Source: Rhizobium sp.
GTDB taxonomy: Bacteria; Pseudomonadota; Gammaproteobacteria; Burkholderiales; Thiobacillaceae
Reading direction: 5' to 3'
Length of the DNA stretch: 64,000 bases
NCBI GenBank assembly: GCA_019459285.1
Contig: JAIBEL010000068.1
Span: 1 to 64,000 of the forward strand
The notes under the pieces are model-generated. The model did no database searches, was not told the origin of the DNA, and saw only the letters and a program-made list of their open reading frames with translations. Position numbers and translations under genes: made by a program. Shown here one piece after another: positions 20,431 through 24,915 of the stretch (its first letter is position 1; each line of letters starts with the position of its first letter).

Positions 20431-20468
20431 GGCCGAGTTTATTTTCCACGGCCACGTTTATTTTCCAC
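20431..20468. repeat. 19-nt tandem duplication over the skp stop codon
   Basis: Two adjacent copies of GGCCNNGTTTATTTTCCAC (20431-20449 and 20450-20468) agree at 17 of 19 positions. The second copy contains the skp TAA stop on the minus strand. Confidence 0.8.
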
Positions 20469-20961
20469 CCAGGGCCTTCATCACGCGATCGGTGATGTCG
20501 TTTTTTGGATCGACGTATACGGCCTGCTCGACGATCAGGTCGAATTTCTCCGTCTTGGCGATGTCCTGGATCGCCTTGCGTGCGCGTTCCTGGATCTGGC
20601 CCAATTCTTCGTTGCGGCGCAGGTTGAGGTCTTCGCGGAATTCGCGCCCCTTGCGCTGCAGTTCGAGGTTGAGATTGTTGAGATCGCGCTCCTTCGACTT
20701 GCGGTCGTTGTCCGACATGGTCACGCCATCCTTGTCGAGCTGCGCCTGCAGGTCACGGGCCTGCTTGGCCAGTTTCTGCAGTTCCTGGTCGCGTCCGGCA
20801 AATTCGCGCTCCAGCTTTTTCTGCGCGGCAATCGACAGAGGCGCCTCGCGCAGCAGCCTCTCGGTGTTGACGAAGCCGATCTTGGTGTCGGCCAGGACGG
20901 GCGCGGCCGCGAACGCAGACGCAAGGATCAGGGAAACTGCCAGCTGCTTGAACTTCATCAT
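20458..20961 (-). CDS. skp: Periplasmic chaperone Skp/OmpH
   Basis: Periplasmic holdase that carries unfolded outer-membrane proteins to BamA. The 167-residue precursor has a signal peptide (MMKFKQLAVSLILASAFAAA, cleaved near PVLA) and a long charged coiled coil with LAKQARDLQAQLDKDGVTM and ELQRKGREFREDLNLRRN. The C-terminal segment FDLIVEQAVYVDPKNDITD is typical. Two adjacent ATGs follow a GGAG site; the upstream one is used. A 265-bp structured element separates it from bamA. Confidence 0.92.
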   Translation of the reverse strand: MMKFKQLAVSLILASAFAAAPVLADTKIGFVNTERLLREAPLSIAAQKKLEREFAGRDQELQKLAKQARDLQAQLDKDGVTMSDNDRKSKERDLNNLNLELQRKGREFREDLNLRRNEELGQIQERARKAIQDIAKTEKFDLIVEQAVYVDPKNDITDRVMKALGGK

Positions 20962-20982
20962 GAATACTCCAGTAACGGCCTA

Positions 20983-21247
20983 GGGCGTATTAACACTAAT
21001 TTCGCGCCCACGTTGCCGTGAGAAAGCGATGGATGCAAGGCGCGGCGCGCAGGCAAGGGCCATCCCTTGCCAAGCGGCGCAACGCTGCAGACGCGCTTTC
21101 TCGCAGCAACCCGAAGGGACGGGCCGATTAGGGTGCATCCCTTTGTCGCGTACCGCTTGCAGTGAACGACACTGCGGCGCGGTCCGCTTCGCGGGCTGCA
21201 CCCCGAATCGACCTCGTCGCGGACGTGAAATTAGTGTTAACACGCCC
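20983..21247. mobile_element. 265-bp structured element with terminal inverted repeats
   Basis: Terminal repeats of about 23 nt contain GTATTAACACTAATTTC on the left (20987-21003) and GAAATTAGTGTTAACAC on the right (21227-21243). The inside folds into two lobes. Lobe one has GAGAAAGCG (21020-21028) with CGCTTTCTC (21094-21102), enclosing GGCAAGGG/CCCTTGCC (21052-21071). Lobe two has GGGTGCATCCC (21131-21141) with GGGCTGCACCC (21193-21203), enclosing GCAGTG/CACTGC (21159-21175). No credible gene lies inside and no target duplication is clear. It resembles a MITE or structured intergenic repeat; I do not recognise a named family. Confidence 0.7.
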
Positions 21248-21253
21248 CAGCCC

Positions 21254-23566
21254 TTAGAACACATTGCCAAGGGTGAATTGAAACATTTCAGCTTTGTCGC
21301 CCGTCTTCTTGACGATCGGCTGCGCCAGGCTGAATTTGAGCGGGCCGAGCGGCGAAACCCAGAGTACGGCAATCCCCGCCGAATAGCGCAAGTCGCCGAA
21401 CGCGAATGTCTTGTACAGGTTGTCCTTGTCGTCGGGACCGAAGGTGGCACCCGCATCGACAAACGCCGACATACGCAGCGACTGGTCATCCTTGAGACCC
21501 GGCAGCGGGAAGAAGACTTCCGCATTGCCAACCACGCGCTTGTCGCCGCCCAGCGCGTCTCCGTTCGCGTCCTTGGGCCCCAGGGTGCCCGTCTTGAAGC
21601 CGCGCACCGAGCTGTTGCCGCCCGCATAGAAGTTCTTGAAGAACGGCAAGGGCTTGCCGGACAGGCCGTCGCCTATCCCCACCTCGCCATTCAGCATCAG
21701 GGTGAAGCTCTTGCCCAGCGGGATATATTGCTGGTGCTGGAACGACAGCTTGTAGTACTGCAGGCTGCCGCCCGGCGTGCCCACCTCGGCCGCCACCCGC
21801 TGCATCAAGCCCTTGGTCGGGAACAGGTAGCTGTTGCGGGTATCGCGCGCCCAGGACGTATCCAGACGCACGGTATCGTTGTCCTTGCCGAACTCGTTGA
21901 CGAATCGCGTGTACTGCACCGGACTGTCCGAATAGGTGGTGAGCGAAGTCTGCTCGTAGGTCAGGCCGAGCGAGAGGAAATCGCGCTCGTTCACCGGCAG
22001 GCCGAATCGCACGCCGGCGCCATAGGTCGAGGTCTTGTAGGCGCCGACATTGGAAAGCGAGGTGGCATCGACGTCGCGGCGATACAGGTCATAGCCCAGG
22101 CTGACGCCATCGATGGTGTAGTAGGGATTGGTGAACGACAGCGCATACACGGTGTTGACGCTGCCCGAGTTGATCTGCGCCGACAGCCGGTTGCCGGTGC
22201 CGAACACGTTGCTCTGCGAGACCGAGCCCGACAGCACCAGTCCCTCGGACGACGAGAAGCCGGCACCCAGCATGATGCTGCCGGTGGATTTCTCGGCCAC
22301 GCTCACATTGACGTCGACCTGGTCGGTGGTGCCCTGCACCGCCGGGGTCTCGATATTCACTTCGTTGAAGTAGCCCAGGCGATTGAGGCGGTCGCGCGAC
22401 AGGTTGATCTTCTCGGCGTCGTAATACGCGCCTTCCATCTGGCGCACTTCGCGGCGCACCACTTCATCGCGAGTCTTGGTGTTGCCCGAGACGTTGACGC
22501 GGTTCACGTACACGCGGCGGCCCGGATCGACGAACAGCGTGAACGCGACCGTGCGCTTCTCCTTGTCGAGGTCGGGCACCGCGTTGACGTTGGCGAAAGC
22601 ATAGCCGTCGTTGCCGAGACGGTCGCCAATGGCCTTGGTGGTCTCGGTCAGGCGGTCGCGCGCAAACACCTCGCCCGGCTTGATGGTGATAAGCTTTTTC
22701 AGTTGGGCTTCCGGTACCAGCATCTGCCCGGCCAGCTTGACGTCAGACACCTTGTACTGGGGTCCCTCGGTCACGTTGACGGTGATGTAGATACCCTGCT
22801 TGTCCGGCGAGATCGACACCTGGGTGGAATCGACGTTGAACTCGAGGTAGCCGCGGTTGAGGTAGAACGAGCGCAGGGCTTCGATATCTCCGGCCAGCCG
22901 CGTCTTGGAATACTGGTCGTTCTTGGTATACCAGGTCAGCCAGCCCGGCGTGGTCGAGGTGAACTGCTTCAGCAGTTCCTTCTCCTTGAATGCCTGGTTG
23001 CCGACGATGTTGATCTGCTGGATCTTTGCGCTGCTGCCTTCCACCACGTCGAACTGCACGGCGACCCGGTTGCGCTCCAGCGGCGTCAGGGTGGACTTGA
23101 TCTCGACGGCATACTTGCCGCGGTTGAAGTATTGCCGCTGCAATTCCTGCTCGGCCTTGTCGAGGAGGGAGCGGTCGAGTACGCGGCCCTCGGCCAGCCC
23201 GGTCTCCTTGAGCCCCTTCTTCAGGTCATCCTCGGAAAACTCCTTGATGCCGGTCAGGGTGATCTTGGCGATCGACGGACGCTCCTCGACGGTGACAATC
23301 ACCACGCCGTCGCGCGCTTCCAGCCGCACATCCTTGAAGAAGCCGGTGGCATACAGCGCCTTGATCGCCGCGGCGGTCTTCTCGTCGGTCATCGTATCGC
23401 CGACCTTGACCGGCAGGTAGCTGAACACCGTGCCCGCCTCGGTGCGCTGGATCCCTTCGACCCGGATGTCCTTGACGACAAAGGGCTCCGCGGCAAACAC
23501 GGGCTGCGCGGCGAATACGACGGCAAGGGCAAGCGTCAAACGGTTCAGGATCATGGTTGTTATCAT
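21254..23566 (-). CDS. bamA: Outer membrane protein assembly factor BamA
   Basis: Central beta-barrel of the BAM machine. The product is about 770 residues: a signal peptide (ALAVVFAAQPVFA), five POTRA domains over roughly residues 30-430 (first FVVKDIRVEGIQRTEAGTVF), and a C-terminal 16-strand barrel. The conserved loop-6 type segment SSVRGFKTGTLGPKD and the terminal phenylalanine (FQFTLGNVF) are present. The ATG at 23564-23566 overlaps the rseP stop (ATGA); an ATG four codons later is an alternative. It lies between rseP and skp as in most proteobacteria. Confidence 0.97.
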   Translation of the reverse strand: MITTMILNRLTLALAVVFAAQPVFAAEPFVVKDIRVEGIQRTEAGTVFSYLPVKVGDTMTDEKTAAAIKALYATGFFKDVRLEARDGVVIVTVEERPSIAKITLTGIKEFSEDDLKKGLKETGLAEGRVLDRSLLDKAEQELQRQYFNRGKYAVEIKSTLTPLERNRVAVQFDVVEGSSAKIQQINIVGNQAFKEKELLKQFTSTTPGWLTWYTKNDQYSKTRLAGDIEALRSFYLNRGYLEFNVDSTQVSISPDKQGIYITVNVTEGPQYKVSDVKLAGQMLVPEAQLKKLITIKPGEVFARDRLTETTKAIGDRLGNDGYAFANVNAVPDLDKEKRTVAFTLFVDPGRRVYVNRVNVSGNTKTRDEVVRREVRQMEGAYYDAEKINLSRDRLNRLGYFNEVNIETPAVQGTTDQVDVNVSVAEKSTGSIMLGAGFSSSEGLVLSGSVSQSNVFGTGNRLSAQINSGSVNTVYALSFTNPYYTIDGVSLGYDLYRRDVDATSLSNVGAYKTSTYGAGVRFGLPVNERDFLSLGLTYEQTSLTTYSDSPVQYTRFVNEFGKDNDTVRLDTSWARDTRNSYLFPTKGLMQRVAAEVGTPGGSLQYYKLSFQHQQYIPLGKSFTLMLNGEVGIGDGLSGKPLPFFKNFYAGGNSSVRGFKTGTLGPKDANGDALGGDKRVVGNAEVFFPLPGLKDDQSLRMSAFVDAGATFGPDDKDNLYKTFAFGDLRYSAGIAVLWVSPLGPLKFSLAQPIVKKTGDKAEMFQFTLGNVF

Positions 23567-24915
23567 CCGCCTATCAGGCGTTGCAAATCGTTGAACAGGG
23601 CAAACGACATCAGCAGGAGCAGGAGCGTCATGCCGATCCGGCTCCCTATTTCCATGGTGCGTTCGGACACCGGGCGACCGGTCAAAACTTCGGCAACATA
23701 ATACATGAGGTGTCCCCCATCCAACAGCGGGACGGGCAGCAGATTCAGCACCCCCAGGCTCACGCTCACCAGCGCCAAAAAACCGACGAAACTGATCCAC
23801 CCGAGCGTGGCACTCTGGCCGGCATAGTCGGCAATGGTCAGCGGGCCCGACAGGTTTTTCCAGGATACCTGCCCCACTACCATACGCCCCATCATCTCCA
23901 GCGTGAACAGGCTCATGTCCCAGGTTTTTTCTGCACCGCGTCCCAGCGCCTCGACCGGTCCGTAACGCACCTCGGTCATCAGGTCGTCCATCAACGAGGG
24001 ATCGATCTTGGGACCGGCCCCGATCTTGCCGATACGCTGGCCATTTTCATCCACCGTATCGGGCACGACCGTCAATTCGCGCATTTGCCCCTCGCGTTCG
24101 TATTCGATACGCAAGGATTGCGACGGATGCTGGCGAATCAGTTTCACCCAGTCCTGCCAGGTCGTCACGGCTTTTCCATTGGCGGCGACCAGCCGGTCTC
24201 CGCTCTGGAAGCCTGCGCGCGCCGCCGCGCCGCCGGGCAGCACCTCGCCGATGACTGGATCGATCGCGGGGGCGTAACCTACGATCCCGAGCGGGCGCAG
24301 CGTGTCCCGTTCCAGGTTCTCGGTATCCATCGGCGGTGCGGCGAGCTGCACGCTACGGCCATCGGCCAGCTCCAGCACAAGCGGGTCACCCGCCACACCG
24401 GCGCGTAGCAATTCCAGCCTCAGATCCTGGAATGACGGGGTGTCGGCGCCATTGACACGGCGGATTTCATCCCCTGACACCAGTCCCGCCTGCGCGGCCG
24501 GCGTACCGGCTGGCGGCTCGCCGATCAGCGGCTTCATCGCAGGCATGCCGTGCAGGAACAGCGCCCAGTAGAACACGATGGCCAGCAGGAAATTGGCGAT
24601 CGGGCCCGCCGCGACGATGCCGATGCGGCGCCAGACACTCGCCCGATTGAAGCTGCGATGCGCCTCTGCGGCCGGGACCTCGCCTTCGCGTTCGTCGAGC
24701 ATCTTCACGTAGCCGCCAAAGGGCAACGCGGCCAGCACCCATTCGGTCTGGTCGCGGCCGAAACGGCGACTGAACAGGGGTTTGCCGAATCCGAGCGAAA
24801 AACGCAACACCTTGACGCCGGCCAATCGGGCCGCCAGATAGTGGCCGAATTCGTGTATCACCACCAGAATGGCGATGGCGACCAAAAACCAGACGACGGT
24901 ATGCAGCACGCTCAT
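23563..24915 (-). CDS. rseP: Site-2 protease RseP
   Basis: Membrane-embedded zinc protease that cleaves anti-sigma factor RseA to release sigma-E. The 450-residue protein has the HEXXH motif in [14 protein letters not shown], the [14 protein letters not shown] membrane-associated loop, two PDZ domains in the middle ([14 protein letters not shown] and [14 protein letters not shown]) and the second metal motif [16 protein letters not shown]. The ATG overlaps the dxr stop (ATGA). Adjacency to bamA fits its envelope-stress role. Confidence 0.96.

Follow-up and report, generated by a model that had tools for sequence, protein, structure and literature searches.

We consider it likely that the 265-bp element between bamA and skp, in the 64,000-nt stretch of DNA analysed here (the window), is one copy of a widespread proteobacterial MITE-like family, which probably inserts at TA and is mobilised in trans. 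A full copy measures about 270 bp: two hairpin lobes of about 100 nt each, inverted relative to each other, are linked by a joint that is usually 7 nt long and enclosed by a pair of terminal arms of about 30 nt. The family has many copies of constant anatomy, the insertion at bamA–skp is absent from the relatives read, and the two arms change jointly. As in MITEs, the element is shorter than 500 bp and gene-less, has terminal inverted repeats, and occurs in many dispersed copies with insertion polymorphism. A MITE had been suggested in the earlier note, and the many copies, the conserved architecture, the paired-base covariation, and the empty site in the 29 relatives read bear this out.

Transposases normally read the letters of transposon ends, and such variability of the arms as we found here is odd for a transposon because most MITE-moving enzymes read the terminal repeats. 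We tentatively speculate that a trans-acting recombinase might read the DNA by its three-part fold, made up of two lobes and a closing stem with TA at its end, and not by the letters of the arms, with the arms drifting freely while being copied from each other, and with one architecture found across several proteobacterial classes. The family looks like a mobile element set by shape more than by sequence. If this is true, a fold that is kept across classes while its end letters change would offer a natural way of testing recognition by shape.

Anatomy of the element and its insertion between bamA and skp

The whole element is an imperfect palindrome without a gene (Table 1). The inverted-repeat search and the comparison of the fold with shuffled sequences confirmed the two-lobed element of 265 bp with terminal inverted repeats that the earlier note had described. 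Both terminal arms fall within one inverted repeat (36 nt, 83%, flank counted in), and a second inverted repeat (17 nt, 88%) is the foot of lobe X. The fold energy of 311 nt gave z-scores of -10.2 and -12.5 on the + and - strands, respectively, and 0 of 100 shuffles were as good on either strand. With up to 3 mismatches allowed, the two arms are the only sites of the end motif GTGTTAACACTAATTT in the window, where 0.03 occurrences would be expected. A chance palindrome is ruled out by the z-scores, the shuffles, and this count. Both arms had been said to end in palindromes; this is right for one arm, on which the motif is perfect, and wrong for the other, which reads GTATTAACAC.

By Pfam, the neighbours are skp (OmpH; Skp/OmpH) and bamA (Omp85 and POTRA; BamA/Omp85), both on the - strand. 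The gap between the element and the skp ATG (20961) is 21 nt, and the 22 nt given previously should be corrected. Mechanical open reading frames run across the region with no sign of being real genes, in agreement with the earlier view that the element holds none. No promoter- or terminator-like site was found in 20900–21330, and the signature of an intrinsic terminator or attenuator, a GC stem followed by a T run, was absent from the element.

Table 1. Features of the element in the window
Feature	Position	Strand	Basis or context
Whole element	20983..21247	.	intergenic, between skp (20458-20961, -) and bamA (reading frame 21254-23800, -)
Terminal arm, skp side, 29 nt	20983..21011	+	sequence, inverted-repeat search, fold
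Lobe X, 99-nt hairpin, core CAAGGCGCG ... CGCAACGC	21012..21110	+	match to covariance model R1 (this is one of the 15 lobes used to build R1); covariation
Joint CCGAAGG, 7 nt (family pattern CCNNNGG)	21111..21117	.	sequence, fold, family alignment
Lobe Y, 101-nt hairpin, related motif inverted relative to X	21118..21218	-	fold, covariation
Terminal arm, bamA side, 29 nt	21219..21247	-	sequence, inverted-repeat search, fold
TA flank at skp-side end, inside CCTAGG; possible target dinucleotide	20981..20982	.	sequence; compare empty site
CA flank at bamA-side end (TG on - strand); possibly a decayed TA	21248..21249	.	sequence; inference

The skp gene was located in 38 of 40 genomes of the genus, and the bamA–skp spacer was read in 30, the genome of the window included. 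The spacer of this genome is 292 nt between the matched coding ends, whereas it is 20–28 nt and without the element in all 29 other genomes read. These short element-free spacers show that the element at bamA–skp is an insertion. The closest relative, whose skp is 99% identical, has the empty spacer GGGTAGGCCGTTACTGGAGTATTC; the genome of the window retains GGCCGTTACTGGAGTATTC beside skp, and the ribosome site of skp is therefore intact. For comparison with the TA flank at 20981–20982, the empty site in genome G015 (L060) reads GGGTAGGCC.

Copies within the genome, the order, and several classes

In the genome of the window, BLAST found a second near-full copy (84%) and several partial copies. 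Four of the partial copies (L004, L006, L007, and L009) proved to be full elements once they were folded to their ends, with the same anatomy and other arm and stem letters, and three further ones end at contig ends. Nine lobe matches at seven places were found in this genome at E<=1e-9. Model R1 matched lobes in 37 of 60 relatives, of which 30 are among the 36 genomes of the genus and 7 among the 24 that belong to other families of the order. Several contigs end within copies of the element (C62:1 and the ends of C41 and C6 in the genome of the window, and several contig ends in G024, G260, and G130), so copies are probably undercounted in draft genomes. Element-free alleles were aligned for eight copies besides that at bamA–skp. 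The search for copies in this genome and its relatives, which the earlier note had proposed, returned multiple copies with covarying pairs and not a single copy or copies without covariation.

Shortened forms were also found. In two genomes of another family, pairs of arms lie about 270 nt, about 180 nt (the size left by one lobe), or less than 100 nt apart, together with many lone arms. One locus of the genus (L156 1897-1942) is a lobe-less near-perfect palindrome of two arms with few bases between them, and one genome of another family holds three derivatives of about 72 nt of similar make-up (L412, L415, and L419). The derivatives of about 72 nt are apparently deletions between short direct repeats within the element.

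At the level of the class, the covariance model of the lobe matched 76 of 274 genomes at E<=1e-4. The matches in 21 genomes were near the scoring ceiling; this survey scored 14 candidates per genome, and the copy numbers are floors in the 21 genomes with 13 or 14 matches. The lobe X pattern was found in at least 118 stretches of named genomes, and the matches listed include Thiobacillus, Pseudomonas, Stutzerimonas, Azotobacter, Acidovorax, Herbaspirillum, Salinisphaera, Nitrosomonas, and Gallionellaceae, and further Halothiobacillus, Hyphomicrobiales, Desulfovibrionaceae, and Myxococcota. The element finder recovered a full element, with its arms and both lobes, in 62 of all 118 stretches and at 40 of the 80 loci listed, with some of the misses sitting at contig ends. 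Full elements were recovered in isolates of Alphaproteobacteria (Roseibium album L257 and Rhodobacterales strain L274), and in Hyphomicrobiales bins and one Desulfovibrionaceae bin, bearing in mind that bins can be misassigned; the finder recovered none at the Myxococcota (L188, L189) and Acidobacteria (L283) loci. A looser fold scan found the two-lobed fold at 51 of 81 places, 40 of which had at least 20 arm pairs. The same anatomy with quite different arm and stem letters was seen in the genome of the window, in Beta-, Gamma-, and Alphaproteobacteria, and in the Desulfovibrionaceae bin.

The 162 distinct elements are 246–304 bp long (the limits of the finder were 245–310). The joint is 7 nt in 129 of them, and 127 of these 129 read CCNNNGG. 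The conservation of the lobe core is inflated for the named loci, which were fetched by a pattern inside lobe X. Among the 100 of 162 copies not fetched by this pattern, both core motifs are present in the X-like lobe of 86 and in the other lobe of 38, and these copies were still found through queries or a model containing the core motif.

No family match was found in 20,395 E. coli records, which should presumably hold copies of ERIC. The phages gave no match, and three plasmid records matched. An insertion in a P. aeruginosa plasmid was matched by four records; the site was covered only by the plasmid itself, with no strain-level empty site. No Rfam RNA family scored above its curated threshold, and the best below it was MIR1151 (E 0.43). 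The literature searched, which lacks most subscription papers, gave no description of this two-lobed family. Together with the Rfam result, this is in line with the earlier note, in which no named family was recognised. As far as we found, the family is nameless, and the two-lobe anatomy across several classes with free turnover of arm letters is what makes it distinctive.

Several known repeats resemble it in part. ERIC, Correia/NEMIS, and RUP are described as short mobile intergenic repeats with 5'-TA-3' termini and long base-paired transcripts (PMC2229807), and the present family is likewise short, mobile, intergenic, and often TA-ended. According to the part of that source consulted, these repeats are about 100–200 bp long and belong to named taxa, whereas the two-lobed family is about 270 bp long and spans several proteobacterial classes. 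It also differs from ERIC, NEMIS, and RUP in its two internal lobes, its usually fixed joint, and arm letters that are wholly different between subfamilies. REPINs, which are REP doublets linked to RAYTs, are similar in being non-autonomous mobile units that consist of two inverted parts and form a hairpin (PMC3116915). In contrast, the lobes here are about 100 nt long and not short REPs, there are extra outer arms of about 30 nt and TA-type ends, and no Y1 gene flanked the elements in the neighbourhoods examined. TIRtrons and TIRYT repeats are described beside Y1-type genes with long terminal inverted repeats, some of them partly self-complementary (PMC3733652). The TIRs of TIRtrons flank transposase genes in that description, whereas two of 20 chosen Y1 neighbourhoods contained a lobe match of the present family, neither of them flanking the gene. 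CIR elements of Caulobacter have two hairpin arms and a linker, and the part of the review consulted contrasts them with elements closed by end pairing (PMC2229807); the two-lobed element has paired ends. Chunjie, QMITE, and other prokaryotic MITEs share the size range, the truncated derivatives, and the intergenic position (PMC10969869), but a related IS was not found for the present family, and the part of that source consulted describes neither lobes nor covarying arms for them.

Joint change of the arms and lobes, and the ends of the copies

In the alignments of the lobes, 29 of 38 pairs in X (15 sequences) and 22 of 32 in Y (13 sequences) had changes on both sides. For both lobes, all five measures of covariation beat 500 of 500 shuffles and six slid versions. 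In the arms of 72 nearest-neighbour pairs of elements, 216 positions were changed on both arms, against 47.7 expected if the arms were independent, and 99 on one arm; in these counts, the copies were chosen for complementary arms and are mutually related, hence they are not independent.

On the X-first strand, the mismatched pairs G·T and A·C numbered 131 and 107 in the arms (p 0.14), 34 and 53 in the X stem (p 0.05), and 94 and 92 in the Y stem (p 0.94), respectively. The 22 copies of ambiguous orientation were kept apart in these strand tests (9 and 12 in the arms). There was no excess of G·T over A·C, and selection on an RNA strand is therefore disfavoured, since G·U should be favoured, with the proviso that such a bias would also be masked if both strands served as RNA. 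Arm-to-arm copying in folded DNA fits the wobble symmetry better. Such copying in palindromes has been proposed as a means to create and keep hairpins, and the part of that work consulted argues it for RNA hairpins (PMC8794818). The arms of the present family would stay complementary through one arm being copied from the other in the folded strand, by template switching or mismatch correction, and the lobe cores would be held by selection. The family would then be a natural record of arm-to-arm copying in palindromes.

By eye, the arms of 35 copies from five many-copy genomes often start with TA or CTAG, and the flanks show no duplication of greater length. TA was found at the same offset at both ends in 18 of the 25 copies from these five genomes that passed the finder, and in 19 of 55 copies from loci of the genus and order. 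Among the 162 distinct elements, the dinucleotides at the same offset at both ends were TA in 77, GC in 74, CG in 19, and AT in 4; 24 elements have CTAG at both ends, and 85 are without TA at both ends. The high GC count probably stems from the arm sequences, in which GGGC or GAGCC is frequent. Taken as an internal control, it means that the TA count is not far above the control. As for the target-site duplications that the earlier note had proposed to look for, none of the 22 empty-site alignments at eight sites had a clean one. The empty-site junctions are continuous but untidy, with a few target bases changed or missing at several sites; at gatC, all four aligned relatives lack a TA. We believe that TA targeting by this family is likely, judging from the letters at the ends of the copies. 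Because the GC control nearly equals the TA count and TA is weak in the genus, our confidence in the reading as a TA-inserting, trans-mobilised family was trimmed slightly.

Candidate enzymes and possible effects on neighbouring genes

No gene was seen inside any full element, and the length leaves little room for one. The copies would be moved in trans by an enzyme that they do not carry, which would depend more on a TA-type end and the folded lobes than on the letters of the arms, and would insert them at TA or close to it, often at CTAG. The arm matches examined in 12 genomes, with one subfamily probed per genome set, included no autonomous version. One arm pattern was used in 10 genomes of the genus (15 stretches looked at), and another in two genomes of another family (20 stretches fetched, and 17 lone arms inspected). 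Among these matches, a single pair of arms stood wide apart in inverted orientation (L401); by eye, the reading frames between them are of Nif3 and DegP type and do not resemble a transposase. For the driver, we rank another trans-acting enzyme first, a Y1 transposase second, and an IS630 transposase third.

Movement as folded single-stranded DNA by a Y1 (HUH, IS200/RAYT-like) transposase, as has been proposed for REPINs, is a rather unlikely reading. Y1_Tnp (PF01797) occurred in 25 of the 27 genomes that had 10 or more element matches, compared with 121 of 198 without a match (Fisher p 0.0009), the two many-match genomes lacking it are only 73% and 86% complete, and the pairing signal without wobble bias also agrees with this reading. 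However, both genome size and ancestry are confounders here, the genome of the window is 100% complete and has no Y1_Tnp match, and the lobe matches in two of the 20 chosen Y1 neighbourhoods (some cut by contig ends) lie 1–2 kb off on one side, so that none flanks the gene.

A conventional MITE of an IS630 (Tc1/mariner-like DDE) transposon, whose transposase would read the terminal repeats, is improbable. IS630 targets TA or CTAG, and many copies of the family end in one or the other. The source cited for RUP connects that repeat with IS630-Spn1 (PMC2229807). In two Azotobacter plasmids (L355 2350-2640 and L356 2380-3840), the element abuts IS630-type sequence with a CTAG common to both, and the adjoining gene in L356 is annotated as IS630-family; this may be an IS630 using the CTAG at the edge of the element, or a coincidence. 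Against this, DDE_3 (PF13358) is absent from seven of eight element-bearing genomes, including that of the window, and it is not enriched, its frequency being 7 of the 27 genomes with 10 or more matches and 49 of the 198 without one; the genes enclosed by L401, the only wide inverted pair among the arm matches examined, do not look like a transposase either. As a general driver, IS630 was rejected by its presence and absence across genomes.

The view that the element evolved as a structured RNA, for instance as an attenuator or a site of processing by which skp is lowered relative to bamA, has very little probability. The fold is very stable, and a transcript must traverse the element if bamA and skp are cotranscribed. 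However, all 29 other genomes of the genus that were read lack the element here, and there is no wobble bias, no terminator tail, and no Rfam match. In particular, the attenuator for skp that the earlier note had considered is unlikely as an evolved role, given the missing insertion in the 29 genomes, the lack of a terminator-like tail, and the intact ribosome site of skp. A retro-type spread through a folded transcript and a reverse transcriptase is the least probable reading of all. Gene-less structured copies in spacers that are probably transcribed would fit it, and nothing specific was found against it apart from the wobble symmetry, which speaks against selection at the RNA level.

The bamA–skp messenger would carry a long hairpin, a likely substrate of RNase III, with the ribosome site of skp untouched. 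RNase III cutting has been proposed for NEMIS (PMC2229807), and by analogy the transcript of the bamA–skp element may be cut in the same way, so that a putative processing of the mRNA is possible as a side effect of the insertion. Another copy in the same genome (contig C4, L004 1453-1722) is inserted within the first codons of gatC. Its arm contributes a GGGAG resembling a ribosome site and an in-frame ATG, and the protein would begin with MRQALSPDDV in place of MSLSPDDV; judging from these letters, this copy appears to have given gatC a new start codon. With 76 of 274 class genomes matched, the family is common enough to influence the spacers within operons, the start codons, and the points at which assemblies break in many environmental genomes.

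At the uvrC start, the topA start, and the fliP–fliQ junction, inspection by eye showed the element in some genomes and unrelated inverted repeats of about 100–180 nt in others (L336-L339 and L342). It seems that palindromic inserts of several kinds can settle in these short spacers.
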